Source of the DNA: Clostridia bacterium
GTDB taxonomy: Bacteria > Bacillota > Clostridia > Christensenellales > Aristaeellaceae
NCBI GenBank assembly: GCA_017396845.1
Contig: JAFQKQ010000033.1
Span: 1 to 41,831 of the forward strand
DNA length: 41,831 nt
Direction of reading: 5' to 3'
This document shows positions 30,508-41,676 of the stretch, piece by piece; the stretch's first letter is position 1, and each line of letters opens with the position of its first letter. Both the position numbers and the translations under genes were made by a program. The notes under the pieces are model-generated. The model was not told the origin of the DNA, did no database searches, and was given only the letters and a program-made list of their open reading frames with translations.

Positions 30508-31305
30508 TTATTTTGACAGAAGTGCGCGGTCGCTGGCAAATTCGTCGCCGCTGGCCTTGGCAAATTGTTCAAGCAGCATGTCTACCGTCAGATGCTTCTT
30601 TTCTTCGCCCTTGATATCCAGAATCACCCTTCCCTCATGCATCATGATCAGCCGGTTTCCGTATCGGATGGCGTCTCGCATGTTGTGCGTAACCATGAGC
30701 GTCATAAGCTTGTCTTCTTCGATGATCTGATTCGATATTTCTAGCACCTTCGACGCGGTTCTGGGATCCAGCGCCGCCGTATGTTCGTCCAGCAGCAGAA
30801 GCTTCGGCTTTTTAAGCGTAGCCATGAGAAGTGTGAGCGCCTGCCTTTGTCCGCCGGAAAGAAGACCTACCTTGCTGGTCATTCTGTCTTCCAGACCCAA
30901 TCCCAGCATTTTAAGCTTTTCTTTGTAGAACTTCCGCTCCGCGCTTGTAATGCCTTTTCTGAGCGTATGGATTTTTCCTCTTCGGAAAGCCAATGCCAGA
31001 TTCTCCTCAATCTGCATATTGGCGGCTGTTCCGGTCATCGGATCCTGAAATACGCGTCCAAGAAAGCTCGCCCGCTTGTGTTCGGGCAGATGCGTAACAT
31101 CTTTTCCGTTAATCTCAATTTTGCCTCTGGTGACGGGCCATACGCCCGAAATGGCGTTCAGCATCGTAGATTTTCCCGCGCCGTTTCCGCCGATCACGGT
31201 TACGAAATCGCCTTCGTCCAAATGCAGATTCAAGCCATTCAGCGCAACCTTTTCATTGATGGTATGCGGATTAAATACTTTTACAACATTTTTAATGTCA
31301 AGCAT
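30508..31305 (-). CDS. ABC transporter ATP-binding protein (TrpZ-like)
   Basis: This 265-residue ATPase drives the importer encoded with it. Walker A is GGNGAGKST (about residues 38-46), the signature is LSGGQRQAL, Walker B is LLLLDEHTAAL and the switch histidine is in VTHNMRDA. The protein belongs to the ATPase group that works with ABC_sub_bind (PF04392) binding proteins and branched-chain-type permeases. Its start overlaps the permease stop by eight bases. Confidence 0.92.
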   Translation of the reverse strand: MLDIKNVVKVFNPHTINEKVALNGLNLHLDEGDFVTVIGGNGAGKSTMLNAISGVWPVTRGKIEINGKDVTHLPEHKRASFLGRVFQDPMTGTAANMQIEENLALAFRRGKIHTLRKGITSAERKFYKEKLKMLGLGLEDRMTSKVGLLSGGQRQALTLLMATLKKPKLLLLDEHTAALDPRTASKVLEISNQIIEEDKLMTLMVTHNMRDAIRYGNRLIMMHEGRVILDIKGEEKKHLTVDMLLEQFAKASGDEFASDRALLSK

Positions 31306-32257
31306 TCTTCTTCGCCTCCTTTTTCTCCATATGCTTTCTGTATGCGGAGAATCCGCTCAGGAAGGCAGGAAGTCCGTTTTTCCAGTACGGAACGGCAAGG
31401 AAGACGGCAACCACCAGCGCGGTAAGCAGCTTCATCAGCTGAGACGGCAGGCCCATCTGTATAACAAGGTTGATGACCACATAGTAAATAACGGTTCCGA
31501 GTACAGCCGTAGATAGCTTGAATGCAAAATTCTGACACAGCTTTCCAAACAGCGCTTCGCCAATGATGATTGCGGCAAGACCGATAACAATCGCGCCGCT
31601 TCCCATTTTTACGTCAACCGTTCCGGAGAACTGCGCAAGCATTGCGGAGGAAAGCGCCACAAGGCCGTTGGCAACCATAAGGCCGATCACCTTGGCAACC
31701 TTGGTATTGATTCCCTGTGCGCGCGCCATCGCCTGATTGCAGCCGGTCGCTCTGAGCGCACAGCCGGTTTCCGTTCCGAAAAACCAGTACAGAAGCGCAA
31801 TCAGAACGATCAATATTGCAAGCGTAATAAATATCGGATTGTCAATCGCCCATTTTCCGGCGTCTCTCATACTGACGAGCACGTCATAATTACGGGTATT
31901 GATATTTCTGTTGGCTTTGTTTCCGAGGAGAAGCAGGTTTATGGAGTACAGCGAAAGCTGTGTAAGAATACCCGAAAGAATCGGCGGAATTCCCATCTGC
32001 GTATGGAAAATTCCCGTCATCAGTCCCGCTGCCATACCCGCAAGGAATGCCAGCACCATTGCAATCCAAATATTCAGGTTATAATCGCAAAGCGCGATGA
32101 TAAACACAACAGCGCCTGTCGCCATGGTGCCGTCGACAGTCAAATCGGAAAAATCAAGCACGCGATATGTGATGTAAAGGCCGATAGCCATAATACCCCA
32201 TATCAGGCCCTGCCCGATTGCGCCCGGTATAGCATTAAGAAGCGACGCGAAATCCAT
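31298..32257 (-). CDS. ABC transporter permease (TrpY-like)
   Basis: This 319-residue permease has eight or nine hydrophobic segments and belongs to the branched-chain amino acid / BMP-type permease superfamily. Typical phrases are GLIWGIMAIGLYITYRVLDFSDLTVDG and the late AIVIGLAAIIIGEALFG. I chose the ATG at 32257 because GGAGGG lies seven bases upstream; the open frame has a start nine residues earlier without such a site. A weak stem-loop (32285-32305) separates it from the binding-protein gene. Confidence 0.9.
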   Translation of the reverse strand: MDFASLLNAIPGAIGQGLIWGIMAIGLYITYRVLDFSDLTVDGTMATGAVVFIIALCDYNLNIWIAMVLAFLAGMAAGLMTGIFHTQMGIPPILSGILTQLSLYSINLLLLGNKANRNINTRNYDVLVSMRDAGKWAIDNPIFITLAILIVLIALLYWFFGTETGCALRATGCNQAMARAQGINTKVAKVIGLMVANGLVALSSAMLAQFSGTVDVKMGSGAIVIGLAAIIIGEALFGKLCQNFAFKLSTAVLGTVIYYVVINLVIQMGLPSQLMKLLTALVVAVFLAVPYWKNGLPAFLSGFSAYRKHMEKKEAKKNA

Positions 32258-32341: not shown

Positions 32342-33298
32342 TTATTCGCCGATGGCTACATATCCTTCGGGAATGGAGATGCCAAAGATTTCGCAAAGCT
32401 CTTTATTGTACTTCTTGGTGAAGTTTGGCGCGAATTCGATGGGCATTTCGGCGATGTTCGCATCGTTTACCAGGATTTCATACGCCATTTTGGCAGTCTG
32501 GCAGCCGAGGTCATAGTAGCTGATGGAGAGCGTCGCAACGCCGCAGCCGGCGCAGAGTCCCTCTTCACCGGCGACTACCGGTACGCCTTCGGGCTCGACA
32601 ACGTTTCTGATGGCTTCAGTGCAGGAAGCGGCGGTGTTGTCGGTGGGGATGTAGATCACGTCGGACTTGACGCAGGCGCTCATCGCAACGGCGTATACAT
32701 CATTCGAATCAGTGAAAGCGAATTCCTCGGTCGCGTAGCCCATATCGGCGAGATATCCCTTTACAACCTCTACCTGATATATGGAGTTAGGTTCGGAGGA
32801 GCAGTACAGAAGGCCGATCGTCTTTGCTTCGGGGAAGAGCTCCTTGATCATCTGAGCCTGTCCGTCCAGCGGCGCAAGGTCGCTGGTGCCGGATACATTG
32901 TAGCCGCTTACGCCGGTCCAGTTCTCAATTTCAAGTGCGGTGCCGTAATCGGTTACGGAGGTACCGAGAATCGGGATATCTTCGGTGGCTGCAAATGCCG
33001 CCTGCACAGCGGGCGTTGCGTTTGCCATGATCAAATCCACATCATCTGCAACCAGTGCATTTACGATGGTGATGCAGTTGGAAATTTCTCCGGAAGCGTT
33101 CTGTTCATTGATTTCTACCTGATCGCCGAGGAGCGCTTTCAGGGTTTCGGTGAAGCCGAGGGTAGCTGCGTCAAGCGCAGGATGCTGAACCAGCTGGCAA
33201 ATTCCGATTTTATACACTTTTTCTTCGGCCATCGCGGGAGCGATCATCATCGACAGGCACAGTACCATTACCGTCAGGATTGCAAGCAGTTTCTTCAT
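32342..33298 (-). CDS. ABC transporter substrate-binding protein (TrpX-like, PF04392)
   Basis: This 318-residue exported binding protein has a signal peptide with cleavage near PAMA-EE (about residue 24) and no lipobox cysteine. The body matches the ABC_sub_bind family (IGICQLVQHPALD, then NATPAVQAA, GTSVTDYG, and YYDLG near the end). Members include TrpX, the tryptophan-binding protein of streptococci. The leader region upstream senses tyrosine, so I infer that this one carries tyrosine or several aromatic amino acids. AGGAGGG precedes the ATG. Confidence 0.9.
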   Translation of the reverse strand: MKKLLAILTVMVLCLSMMIAPAMAEEKVYKIGICQLVQHPALDAATLGFTETLKALLGDQVEINEQNASGEISNCITIVNALVADDVDLIMANATPAVQAAFAATEDIPILGTSVTDYGTALEIENWTGVSGYNVSGTSDLAPLDGQAQMIKELFPEAKTIGLLYCSSEPNSIYQVEVVKGYLADMGYATEEFAFTDSNDVYAVAMSACVKSDVIYIPTDNTAASCTEAIRNVVEPEGVPVVAGEEGLCAGCGVATLSISYYDLGCQTAKMAYEILVNDANIAEMPIEFAPNFTKKYNKELCEIFGISIPEGYVAIGE

Positions 33299-33326: not shown

Positions 33327-33355
33327 AAAAAAACGGCTCTCGTCTAAGAGAACCG
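33327..33355 (-). terminator. Attenuator terminator of the ABC transporter operon
   Basis: On the minus strand CGGTTCTC (33355-33348) pairs with GAGAGCCG (33341-33334), one G-U pair, around the loop TTAGAC. Seven T residues follow (33333-33327). It sits 29 bp before the binding-protein gene. Its loop and the first two bases of its 3' arm are complementary to 33385-33392, just after the leader peptide stop. Confidence 0.9.
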
Positions 33356-33392
33356 CTTTTAAGAATCAATAAAGCAAGTTACAGTTAGACGA
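33340..33392 (-). promoter_or_regulatory. Predicted antiterminator pairing
   Basis: TCGTCTAA (33392-33385), immediately after the leader peptide stop, is fully complementary to TTAGACGA (33347-33340), which forms the loop and top of the terminator. The two structures compete. A ribosome at the stop codon would cover the first segment and allow termination; a ribosome stalled on Tyr codons would leave it free. Confidence 0.7.
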
Positions 33393-33536
33393 CTATTTTT
33401 TATAATAGTAATAATAGTAATAATAAAAAGACAGCACGGAATTCTCGCGTGCTGCTTTGGTATAGGCATAAGACGAAAGACTCTTCGAGGACGCAGAAAG
33501 AGCCTTAATATTTTTATTGACGTTCATATTCGTCAT
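33393..33536 (-). CDS. Tyr-rich leader peptide of the ABC transporter operon
   Basis: This 47-codon frame starts with ATG at 33536, seven bases after an excellent ribosome binding site (GGAAGGAAGGG), and stops with TAG at 33393. It reads MTNMNVNKNIKALSASSK and so on, and has two Tyr codons at 23 and 25. Eight consecutive Tyr codons follow at positions 38-45 (TAT and TAC mixed), then Lys-Lys-stop. The arrangement relative to the antiterminator and terminator is that of an amino-acid leader peptide such as TrpL or PheL. The peptide itself is unlikely to have a separate function. Confidence 0.88.
   Translation of the reverse strand: MTNMNVNKNIKALSASSKSLSSYAYTKAARENSVLSFYYYYYYYYKK
33432..33454 (-). 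promoter_or_regulatory. Pause-type hairpin inside the leader peptide frame
   Basis: CAGCACG (33454-33448) pairs with CGTGCTG (33438-33432) around a 9-nt loop, and TCTTTTT follows just before the Tyr codons. It has the form of a transcription pause or weak terminator, which would hold RNA polymerase until the first ribosome arrives. Confidence 0.65.
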
Positions 33537-33574
33537 CGCTCTTCCCTTCCTTCCTCGTTTCTAAATTACTTTGT

Positions 33575-33603
33575 ATTATATTCATGCATCAGGCAATTGT
33601 CAA
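33575..33603 (-). promoter_or_regulatory. Promoter of the leader-ABC transporter operon
   Basis: A perfect TTGACA (33603-33598) and TATAAT (33580-33575) are separated by 17 bp on the minus strand, 38 bp before the leader peptide ATG. Confidence 0.9.
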
Positions 33604-33702: not shown

Positions 33703-34236
33703 TTACCGTTTTTCCTCTTCTTCCTGCAAGCGCCTTTCAAATTCATCCCAGGATTTTGAAAATACGTGATCGGCAAAAGCCTCTTTGAGCCCGCTGATCT
33801 GCTTAAGTCTGATCACTTCATCCAGTTCCATACCGAGATAAGTGCATATTTTTTCATCATCCCAGCCCTTTTGAATCAAAGAGCACACGATGTTTGACAT
33901 GTCCAGAATCTGATGCGTGCCCCTCGCGCGGTTATGGCGGATGGTACTTGCAATTCGCTGGTCGATCGGCTTATCGATGACCGTTACCGGAAGATACGGA
34001 CAGGAGAAGTAGAGCTTATTGACCAGATATCTGTGAAAACCGTCCACAACCTCATATACATCCCAGTCTTTATCGTAGTATACAACAATCGGCTGCGTAT
34101 AACCGTCCTCTTCAATGGATATTTTCAGAAGCTTTAATTCCGGAGAAGCCATGCGGTTCGGATTGTAATCATTTGCAACTATCTTTTCGGCAGGCACCAT
34201 TTTCACATTCATCACCGGAAATTCAATCTTTTTCAT
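33703..34236 (-). CDS. ParB/IbrB-like protein
   Basis: This 177-residue protein has the ParB N-terminal (ParB/sulfiredoxin) fold: VPAEKIVANDYNPNRM, then ISIEEDGYTQPIVVY, YEVVDGFHRYLV and RHNRARGTHQI. It has no C-terminal dimerisation or CTP-linked partition context, and no ParA is nearby. Next to an IbrA-like gene it corresponds to IbrB, described in Escherichia coli as a regulator of Eib immunoglobulin-binding proteins together with IbrA. It overlaps the upstream gene by 14 bases and is last in the accessory operon. Confidence 0.82.
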   Translation of the reverse strand: MKKIEFPVMNVKMVPAEKIVANDYNPNRMASPELKLLKISIEEDGYTQPIVVYYDKDWDVYEVVDGFHRYLVNKLYFSCPYLPVTVIDKPIDQRIASTIRHNRARGTHQILDMSNIVCSLIQKGWDDEKICTYLGMELDEVIRLKQISGLKEAFADHVFSKSWDEFERRLQEEEEKR

Positions 34237-34576
34237 ATGTCACCTCTACGAAATTTCTGGAGTATTCCGATACGGAAAACCCGTTTACCCGATATATATC
34301 CTGAAACACCGCCGGCAAAACGCCGCCTTTTATGTTTTCCCGGGAAACGATTTCTTTCAGCACTGCATCTGCGAGTTCATCGTCCTCTGCCCAGAAATTC
34401 TTGATTATGTCCTTCTTGACAGATGCCGCCGCCCTGTCTTCAATCACATACCATATTTTATCTTCGTCATCATAAAAGCGGTCGTGCGTAATTTTTTCAA
34501 TCTCCCTCGACCCGAATATCTTTCCCATGTATAAATAAAAGTCCTCATTCTTCCTTGTTATCCTGACAACCTTCAT
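34223..34576 (-). CDS. Unknown 117-residue protein of the IbrA/IbrB operon
   Basis: I do not recognise this protein. It is mixed alpha/beta, slightly acidic, with no membrane segment, signal or cysteine motif. It opens with MKVVRITRKNEDFYLYMGKIF and includes RFYDDEDKIWYVI and a Trp-containing FWAEDDEL. It overlaps ibrA-like by 32 bases upstream and ibrB-like by 14 bases downstream, so it is tightly coupled to both and probably part of the same complex or process. A later Met at residue 17 could also start it and would remove the large overlap. Confidence 0.72.
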   Translation of the reverse strand: MKVVRITRKNEDFYLYMGKIFGSREIEKITHDRFYDDEDKIWYVIEDRAAASVKKDIIKNFWAEDDELADAVLKEIVSRENIKGGVLPAVFQDIYRVNGFSVSEYSRNFVEVTYEKD

Positions 34577-35849
34577 CCAGTTCCCTTCTTTCGATCAATC
34601 GTTTCAGATCCTTATCCGCAGTTTCCGTATCGCGCGTAAGAAAATTGTTCCATTTACCGATGAACAATTCGAGCTTCTTTTCGTCGCTCTTTGTCTGTGC
34701 AAACGAAAGCCGCTTCATGTAAAAATCGTTCTTCTCAATCGCCCTTGCGATTCTCCGCCAGCTGATCGCCTTTTTAAGGTTTTCAAGCTTTTTATCTGCC
34801 TCGCCCGGTATATCCGAAATCTGAATCCCCTCGGTTTTCTGATACCAGCGTATGAATTTTTTTATTTTTCCGTAATAGTGTATCATCAAATCGCGGTTAT
34901 AAAGGCCGATGCTTTCCAGAAGAAACACCGTGTACTGCTCCCATGACATATTATCGGGCTTAAACGATTTGATATTTCCAAGCGCGGTTGTACGGCAATA
35001 AATGTTTCCGAAATTCACGCCGTTTACGCGCGAAAGCACCTTCTCCCACGTTTCCGGCTCCAGCGCGCGAAACTGATCAAGTCCGTTTCTCTGATCGTCT
35101 CCATAGGGCTGACAGAGCCTTTGCTGGTAGATACTCAAGCCGTTTTTATACATAAGCTCGTATATTTCATTGCTCTTCAAACCCAGCTTGCTGACGGCGC
35201 CCCATATATCCTCCGCCCGCCAGTCGTACAGCGGGAAAAAGTTGAACAGCCCTTCGCCGTATTGCGTCGTCCAATGCTTTTCATTGTACATGATTTTCTT
35301 TTCATAAAAGGCGATGGTCTGAAAACGGTGAAGGCTCTCATCCGCGCGGATTCCTACGCCGCAGGCGCATTTTCCCTCATGTGTACCCTTATACCATTCG
35401 GCAAATTCTATTATGAAATCCTCAAATTCTTCGCCCTTTCGAAACCAGCTCCAAGGGCAATTGTCTTCTGTAATTGCGCTTTTGGGAAGCGGCCGCACCC
35501 ATAGATCCTTTTGATCCTTATCCCAGCAAATCCACTTCGGCTGCAGCATGGATACCGCGTTTCTGAGCGCTATGGGAAGCGCCACATGATAGAATGTACC
35601 GATACACGAAAGCTTTTTAAGTTCCTCAATATGAATTATTGTGCGTGCATACTGCGCTTCAAGGTCGATAAAGAGTACATCGTATCTTCTGTTCATTTTC
35701 TGCGCGGCAATATCTGCAAGCTGTACCATTACGCTGCTGTCCTTGCCGCCGGATACGCAAAAATAAACGTTTTCAAATTCTGAAAATATGTACTCTATCC
35801 TTTCAAACGCTGCGTCAAGCACGTTTTTATCGCTGTAAATCTTTGGCAT
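34545..35849 (-). CDS. IbrA-like PAPS reductase-family (DUF3440) protein
   Basis: This 434-residue PP-loop ATP-pyrophosphatase-fold protein belongs to the phosphoadenosine phosphosulfate reductase family. The PP-loop is SGGKDSS (residues 33-39). A CACGVGIRADES block and WRAEDIWGAV follow, typical of the family, and the C-terminal half matches the DUF3440 extension of IbrA. Relatives with this fold (DndC, SspD) act in DNA phosphorothioation, whereas IbrA is described only as a regulator. Which applies here is open. It starts 18 bases after the helicase-like gene and shares its transcript. Confidence 0.87.
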   Translation of the reverse strand: MPKIYSDKNVLDAAFERIEYIFSEFENVYFCVSGGKDSSVMVQLADIAAQKMNRRYDVLFIDLEAQYARTIIHIEELKKLSCIGTFYHVALPIALRNAVSMLQPKWICWDKDQKDLWVRPLPKSAITEDNCPWSWFRKGEEFEDFIIEFAEWYKGTHEGKCACGVGIRADESLHRFQTIAFYEKKIMYNEKHWTTQYGEGLFNFFPLYDWRAEDIWGAVSKLGLKSNEIYELMYKNGLSIYQQRLCQPYGDDQRNGLDQFRALEPETWEKVLSRVNGVNFGNIYCRTTALGNIKSFKPDNMSWEQYTVFLLESIGLYNRDLMIHYYGKIKKFIRWYQKTEGIQISDIPGEADKKLENLKKAISWRRIARAIEKNDFYMKRLSFAQTKSDEKKLELFIGKWNNFLTRDTETADKDLKRLIERRELDEGCQDNKEE

Positions 35850-38257: not shown

Positions 38258-38263
38258 TCATCA

Positions 38264-38345
<82 letters not shown>

Positions 38346-38408
38346 ACATACGTTCTTAGCGCCAAACGCCGCGGACGAATGATATTATAGCACAGGTTCT
38401 CTAATAAA

Positions 38409-41563: not shown

Positions 41564-41594
41564 GAAATGCCTTCTCTTTCGAGAAGGGCTATGG

Positions 41595-41676
<82 letters not shown>

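Follow-up and report, generated by a model that had tools for sequence, protein, structure and literature searches.

What decides whether the ABC importer operon on the minus strand of contig JAFQKQ010000033.1 is transcribed? In the stretch of 41,831 nucleotides analyzed here (the window), from a genome of 2.8 Mb that is 73% complete, the operon is preceded by a short open reading frame with eight Tyr codons in a row and by a terminator. The original prediction read this arrangement as a tyrosine leader-peptide attenuator, a reading that is supported by homologous leaders, covariation and the toggling of the simulated fold. From the sequence and the folding models we judge it probable (roughly 0.85) that a ribosome-mediated transcription attenuator senses charged tRNA-Tyr at this locus to govern expression of an ABC importer operon of Tyr/Phe type; the estimate is not higher because folding of the window depends on the position within the Tyr tract at which the ribosome stalls.

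Leader, terminator and operon

The features of the locus are collected in Table 1. The perfect promoter that had been predicted ahead of the leader withstood a scan of 4 kb, in which it was the sole 12/12 site and sites matching at 9/12 or better numbered 6 against 5.4 expected from shuffles. By eye, a comparable promoter layout precedes the leaders of L108, L110, L113, L029 and other relatives. The predicted 47-codon frame with its ribosome binding site and eight consecutive Tyr codons near the end was likewise evident from direct reading. Its 3' end encodes F-Y8-K-K (SFYYYYYYYYKK), with a single Phe codon (33428-33426) preceding the Tyr tract and the H1 hairpin situated immediately before the aromatic codons. 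Given the RBS-like stretch, the homologues and the in-frame aromatic codons, this ORF is probably translated. The run of cognate control codons typical of ribosome-mediated attenuators is thus present as eight Tyr codons, the importer being assigned to the Tyr/Phe type by homology only. An intrinsic terminator stands between the leader and the first gene, its U-tract ending 28 nt before the ATG (33298) of the substrate-binding protein (SBP) gene; it was not among the calls of a simple terminator scan of the window. The segment after the stop, UCGUCUAA, is the exact complement of UUAGACGA, and both this complementarity to the loop and top of the terminator and the seven-T stem before the SBP gene had been correctly described.

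Table 1. Positions of the leader, switch and operon features in the window
Feature	Position	Strand	Basis or remark
Sigma-A type promoter TTGACA-17-TATAAT	33575..33603	-	12/12 match; TTGACA 33603-33598, spacer 17 nt, TATAAT 33580-33575
Purine-rich RBS-like stretch GAGGAAGGAAGGG	33544..33556	-	Direct reading of sequence
Leader ORF, 47 codons, MTNMNVNKNIKALSASSKSLSSYAYTKAARENSVLSFYYYYYYYYKK	33393..33536	-	ATG 33536, TAG 33395-33393; homologous leaders in relatives
H1 hairpin in ORF (codons AAR..VLS), then U-rich tract	33427..33458	-	MFE -14.7 kcal/mol
Control codons TAT TAT TAC TAT TAT TAC TAT TAT (8 Tyr)	33402..33425	-	Direct reading
Antiterminator strand UCGUCUAA	33385..33392	-	Directly after stop; would be under a ribosome paused at the stop
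Second antiterminator strand AACU-U-GCUUU	33371..33380	-	Pairs with 33359-33351 (terminator 5' arm); window folding only
Terminator, 13 pairs, 6-nt loop 33347-33342, U-tract 33333-33327 (seven T)	33329..33360	-	Fold and alignment; stem 33360-33348/33341-33329, -17.5 kcal/mol
UUAGACGA, loop of the terminator plus top of its 3' arm	33340..33347	-	Partner of 33392-33385
Substrate-binding protein (ABC_sub_bind, TrpX-like), putative regulated gene 1	32342..33298	-	Domain search
Permease (BPD_transp_2), putative regulated gene 2	31298..32257	-	Domain search
ATPase (ABC_tran), putative regulated gene 3	30508..31305	-	Domain search

The Tyr run is unique in its genome, no other run of five TAY codons being present elsewhere in these 2.8 Mb. 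Of 300 family genomes, 7 contain runs of six TAY codons; on inspection by eye, none of those in the six genomes besides that of the window is a leader, and we therefore rejected a chance Tyr run. A 9-nt unit, TATTATTAC, makes up the tract as a perfect repeat (x 2.7), so slippage could have extended it. A modeling study argues for a sharper response where control codons are many and make up a high fraction (PMC1183508), and eight control codons in a row fit that model.

Several other elements were noted around the locus and in the searches for Tyr codons. Two tRNA-Tyr (GUA) genes, at 38263-38346 and 41592-41676, lie no more than 8.5 kb upstream of the leader, and a ParB_N gene and a DUF3440/PAPS-reductase gene, a pair that we take to resemble IbrA/IbrB, occupy 33703-35849 directly upstream of the importer operon. 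Among the matches to the Tyr-codon pattern, the TAC repeats of L236 and L237, from two other genomes, adjoin TTTTCCACA-type boxes before a dnaN-like gene, an arrangement that is not a leader and resembles the DnaA-trios of a replication origin.

Leaders and T-boxes upstream of related importers

SBP homologues were detected at E<=1e-40 in 188 of 300 family genomes. For comparison we used 212 upstream regions: three congener matches, the best 80 among 556 relatives from named contigs, and 129 family-genome loci, comprising 29 loci and 100 further matches listed, with 18 of the listed matches and all unlisted ones left out. Collapsing by identity of the 250-nt upstream sequence plus 100 residues reduced these to 187, and addition of the window gave 188 rows, which are not independent because near-identical rows were kept after collapsing. 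They comprise 44 leaders homologous to that of the window (itself included), 14 other aromatic leaders, 30 regions with a T-box motif and 100 others; of these last, 4 are truncated and 38 apparently lie inside operons, which leaves 58 of the 188 regions with no recognizable regulator. The earlier proposal that short Tyr-rich frames followed by a terminator would recur upstream of homologous SBP genes thus held in part: the 44 homologous aromatic leaders, 30 of them found by motif and 14, including that of the window, by eye, keep the complementarity, whereas 144 of the 188 rows lack such leaders and Tyr codons as such are not conserved.

The homologous leaders mostly span about 40-60 codons and are typified by an A[AV]RF..ALRF signature, followed by Phe, Tyr or Trp codons. 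KAARENSVLSFYYYYYYYY of the window aligns with NAARYFGVLRFYFYAYFF of L108, and in a sequence-only alignment UCGUCUAA of the window shares its column with CCCAUCUG of the relatives. In a quick tree of the SBPs with open branches, from which L227 and L230 were left out as too short, 43 of the 44 leader rows, those of sufficient length, fall inside one group of 53 rows (support 87, open) whose remaining members are three rows with T-boxes, two with other leaders and five of other kinds. Over the whole tree at least 6 changes between leader and T-box are needed. Within the leader clade, L136 and L143 retain the promoter and terminator with no leader ORF seen, possibly representing a decay series.

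We noted that Phe codons outnumber Tyr codons in 40 of 43 leaders and Tyr outnumbers Phe in only two, those of the window and of L152, whose tract YYYYYLYYY is Tyr-dominated. Aromatic codons are thus conserved among the homologous leaders and Tyr specifically is not, so that the case for Tyr sensing comes mainly from the window. The best ten-codon stretch within the last 20 codons holds 5.9 aromatic codons in frame against 2.5 and 2.9 in the other frames; given that the rows were partly chosen for aromatic runs, this excess is not an independent test. A modest excess of synonymous changes (32/89 versus 23% expected, p = 0.0045, 11 pairs) suggests that the leader peptide is weakly constrained, as leaders may be.

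Firmicutes ordinarily sense amino acids with T-boxes. Using the T-boxes before pheS, leuS, metG and serS of the window's own genome (genes named by eye) as a ruler, we read by eye UUC (Phe) in 26 of the 29 specifiers printed and UAC (Tyr) in two, with one ambiguous. In 23 of the 26 Phe T-boxes the base after the specifier is C or U rather than the usual purine. The Rfam gathering score was reached by 8 of 20 submitted T-box regions, among them the two with UAC, L006 and L007. Both come from the window's own genus and belong to another SBP subclade, and hence are not strict counterparts of the window importer; the T-box row closest to the window SBP, L109, reads Phe. T-box matches in the own genome number 18, of which 9 are above the cut-off, and UUC is the specifier before its Phe-linked genes, namely pheS (by eye) and the gene of a PaaK-like ligase. 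A further T-box of this genome, L009 (C43), carries the Tyr reading GAA-UAC-A before a transporter-like gene, of the major-facilitator type by eye, so the genome may sense Tyr with two different RNA devices.

These relatives raise the alternative that the window leader is a general aromatic (Phe + Tyr) sensor like theirs, its Tyr run being a mere repeat expansion in a mixed tract. The prevalence of Phe in the homologous leaders, the perfect 9-nt repeat, the Phe codon before the Tyr tract and the Phe specifier of L109 are all consistent with it. However, with a single Phe codon left in the tract a shortage of Phe would stall little, L152 is likewise Tyr-dominated and has no perfect repeat, the genus carries Tyr T-boxes on a homologous importer, and the Phe-linked genes of the own genome are under UUC T-boxes. 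We accordingly regard a general aromatic sensor as unlikely. That the locus itself is a divergent T-box or another known riboswitch might be suspected from the 30 T-box motifs before related genes; its likelihood is negligible, as no T-box or other cis-regulatory Rfam family exceeds its threshold in the window, and a Stem I and T-box were not found there. This identity was rejected on these grounds. The best sub-threshold cis-regulatory matches at the locus were nqrA-II (26.3/55 bits) and Thr_leader (17.4/55 bits), the latter being the sole leader family listed, and no Rfam amino-acid leader family passed the gathering threshold there.

Apart from the homologous leaders, unrelated-looking aromatic leaders (for example GFYYYF) precede members of this transporter family in other lineages, as in L065, L076, L084, L090, L100, L106, L175, L214 and L220, possibly by convergence. 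The 14 rows of this kind were chosen by eye, with L055, L157, L161 and L163 doubtful. When 13 of them were folded, L065, L076, L100, L106 and L047 were switch-like, L090, L175 and L214 were not, and the other five were ambiguous.

Covariation and simulated folding of the switch

An unguided scan for helices of at least 4 stacked pairs at 85% or more, run on a sequence-only alignment of 29 leader rows of <86% identity (A1), gave four runs: the terminator, a helix joining the stop region to the loop of the terminator (the anti:loop helix), the same helix in a shifted register, and the H1 core. Across the 29 rows 97.2% of cells are paired, compared with 91.5% in shuffles and 35-55% when slid. Changes on both sides are seen in 11 of 21 pairs against 4.5 in shuffles, and 0 of 500 shuffles matched either this or the pairing value; in reading these comparisons it should be noted that the structure was derived from the same rows and that related rows inflate shuffle tests. 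In the anti:loop helix 5 of 7 pairs changed on both sides, as exemplified by UCGUCUAA:UUAGACGA in the window, CCGUCUGA:UUGGACGG in L108 and CAUCUAAAAGA:UCUUUUAGAUG in L194, and its complementarity scores 19.3 versus 13.57 +/- 0.39 (200 shuffles, 43 rows). Hence a mutually exclusive antiterminator, as expected of an attenuator, has been kept by compensatory change.

The H1 core is paired in 97.4% over the 29 rows. Over the 43 leaders used in folding (L048 was dropped because the terminator finder missed its terminator) H1 has a median MFE of -16.1, and U fills a median of 6 of the 8 nt that follow, which is terminator-like. It would probably pause the polymerase or end untranslated transcripts, and so keep ribosome and polymerase coupled.

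We then folded the window with the ribosome at different positions, using partial transcripts because the polymerase hides the last nucleotides of the RNA. With the ribosome at the first Tyr codon, the probability of the antiterminator, P(anti), is 0.87-0.97 and that of the terminator 0-0.06 for RNA ends from 33344 to 33334; at RNA end 33332 the two stand at 0.53 and 0.43. A stall at the last Tyr codon gives P(anti) 0.21 versus 0.70 for the terminator at RNA end 33334, and a ribosome at the stop raises P(terminator) from 0.82 at 33338 to 0.98 at 33332. In the absence of a ribosome P(anti) is 0.91 at 33338 but only 0.12 at 33334, suggesting that an untranslated leader would tend toward termination. 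Given that the terminator is more stable at full length (P 0.97 at 33328) and that the stalled state reaches only 0.53 versus 0.43 at 33332, the switch would have to be kinetic. The window fold also contains a second antiterminator stem of 9 bp, formed by 33380-33371 with 33359-33351, which captures the 5' arm of the terminator. The earlier caution that the antiterminator meets only the loop and top of the terminator therefore no longer applies.

The same behavior extends to the homologues. When 5 nt were hidden in the 3' arm, the 43 stalled leaders had a median P(anti) of 0.98 (>0.5 in 39), and with the ribosome at the stop a median P(terminator) of 0.99 (>0.5 in 37); when no nucleotides were hidden, the terminator won even in the stalled state, with a median of 0.93. 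The exceptions among stalled leaders are L037 (P(anti) 0, terminator 0.98), L117 and L215 (P(anti) 0 for the scored helix) and L130 (0.47). P(anti) was scored here on the helix of best complementarity, a choice from which a fixed-start control is free. In this control, which starts 30 nt before the end of the stop and in which the segment before the terminator is shuffled, P(terminator) averages 0.03 in the 43 real leaders versus 0.72 in shuffled ones, and exceeds 0.5 in 0/43 versus 73%. The window, at 0.41 versus 0.94 shuffled, is less clean than the other leaders. Thus the proposed check of folding with and without ribosome masking came out as anticipated, a mask at the stop toggling the simulated fold of the window and of the 43 leaders, and in these simulations it is the position of the ribosome that decides the fold.

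These results bear on whether the terminator could be constitutive and the ORF accidental, with no translational regulation. Full-length thermodynamics are on the side of the terminator, and L136 and L143 keep promoter and terminator with no leader ORF seen. Such an arrangement is nonetheless extremely unlikely given the conserved ORF, the aromatic codons in frame, the covarying antiterminator and the shuffle controls, and we rejected it on the covariation and the fixed-start control.

The tyrosine-sensing attenuator could accordingly be pictured as follows. With enough tyrosine, the ribosome would read the eight Tyr codons through to the stop and cover 33392-33385, precluding the antiterminator; in the simulations the hairpin 33360-33329 then forms, at which RNA polymerase would stop. 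With low tyrosine, the ribosome would stall early in the Tyr tract, and in the simulated fold 33392-33385 pairs with 33347-33340 and 33380-33371 holds the terminator 5' arm. The polymerase could then clear the U-tract before the terminator wins, and the importer would be made.

Probable substrate of the importer and distribution of the device

The importer had been named TrpXYZ-type. The window SBP scores 224.4/390 bits against the TrpX equivalog NF041285, short of the cut-off, and the protein of solved structure closest to it in sequence is CD0873 from Clostridioides difficile (6HNI; E 4.5e-51), which binds tyrosine (PMC6816091). There, Tyr specificity is ascribed to Glu-263 and exclusion of Trp to tyrosine 284, and in the alignment these pocket residues correspond to Glu245 and Tyr261 of the window SBP. 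However, the Glu and Tyr are common to 183 of the 188 rows, including relatives under Phe T-boxes (the remaining five have Asp in two, Tyr in one and gaps in two), and do not separate Tyr from Phe within these rows. They therefore favor Tyr/Phe over Trp and nothing beyond, so that the likeness to CD0873 speaks against Trp and is not proof of Tyr. On these sequence comparisons Tyr/Phe-type is a better name for the importer than Trp-type. In C. difficile, loss of one ABC transporter is reported to go along with lower uptake of Tyr and Phe (PMC5951980). In the tandem SBP genes L194/L107 and L216/L111, the leader stands before the first gene, whose pocket has Asp instead of Glu.

A covariance model built on the device gave 62 matches at E<=1.2e-10, spread over 52 of the 300 family genomes. 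By coordinates 48 of the 62 adjoin an SBP gene; of the other 14, 11 precede a phenylacetate-CoA-ligase-like gene, one a DAHP synthase gene, one a LeuA-like gene and one a gene at a contig end. The ligase-like genes were recognized by shared sequence; the one profile-tested has TIGR02155 as its best NCBIfam family (546/646 bits, below the cut-off) and an ACT-domain gene behind it. The DAHP synthase behind the device is over the aroFGH cut-off, and there is a second candidate at E 2.6e-8. The device thus belongs to a homologous family, mostly with Phe codons, that is also found before phenylacetate-CoA-ligase-like and DAHP-synthase genes. In its own genome the window holds the only strong copy (two weak matches have E 0.04 and 0.07), and the ligase-like gene is under the UUC T-box. 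Among 395 sampled genomes of the order, 9 had a match at E<=1e-4, four of these within the family; outside it there was one strong match, G398 at 5e-12 (L298, before a ligase-like gene), and four weaker ones from 6e-6 to 3.5e-5. A sample of 291 genomes of the class gave at E<=1e-6 only the window's own and none in the other 290, both searches using stricter filters at which weak matches are lost.

This context bears on whether the nascent peptide itself, a poly-Tyr/Lys chain, perhaps with a small molecule or antibiotic, and not a lack of charged tRNA, arrests the ribosome. Stalling leaders that do not sense amino-acid tRNA are reported in Firmicutes for BmrC/BmrD (PMC4191407) and MsrD (PMC10314930). 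The aromatic residues of the homologous leaders differ in order and kind, unlike an arrest motif, and the identifiable genes behind the device are for amino-acid uptake or synthesis, which makes arrest by the peptide very unlikely. We consider it an even bet that the attenuator spread through the aromatic regulon of this family of uncultured Clostridia (importer, ligase, DAHP synthase), at sites that carry T-boxes in relatives, and that its specificity shifted from Phe to Tyr on two or more occasions, in the window and in L152, the codons changing and the switch remaining unchanged. If so, a codon-programmable sensor has been caught evolving.

Among characterized systems, pheA and pheST of E. 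coli, in the Proteobacteria, have Phe-rich leaders and ribosome-mediated attenuation of aromatic genes; in the present device the strand of the antiterminator is located at the stop codon, with the loop of the terminator as its partner. The T-box had been named as the normal control of aromatic amino-acid transport in Firmicutes; leader-peptide attenuators are already described there for His (proposed in PMC2965389 and PMC9413887) and for Leu (PMC5794164). The His leaders resemble the present device in having a short leader with His codons, a terminator and an antiterminator, in Gram-positives, including Eubacteriales, that are rich in T-boxes; they differ in serving histidine genes, and the passages concerned report no aromatic link (PMC2965389, PMC9413887). 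The Leu-rich attenuator peptide of Staphylococcus aureus ilv-leu is similar in placing a leader peptide and terminator where B. subtilis carries a T-box, and differs in that it concerns leucine, biosynthesis and another class and is backed by selected mutants, versus sequence and folding here (PMC5794164). The trpXYZ genes of Streptococcus suis are under a T-box that responds to tryptophan, hence a tRNA-sensing leader RNA on the same transporter family, with no leader peptide and with tryptophan in place of tyrosine (PMC9382623). Our literature search, with most subscription papers outside its scope, found no description of a tyrosine-codon attenuator or aromatic leader family in Clostridia. 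The occurrence of the same importer under an attenuator or under Phe or Tyr T-boxes provides a natural series for RNA-sensor replacement on one gene, and poses the question of whether codon content alone sets specificity. A further suggestion is that Tyr or Phe is the signal for this transporter group, a point of interest for how gut and rumen bacteria use aromatic amino acids.

Beyond the importers, the device stands before ligase-like genes in L276-L284, L286, L287 and L298, several with an ACT-domain gene behind, a combination that may reflect phenylalanine made from phenylacetate under Phe-codon control. In L285 and L290 it stands before a DAHP synthase gene, with both Phe and Trp codons in the leaders, for example FFFGWWSW.
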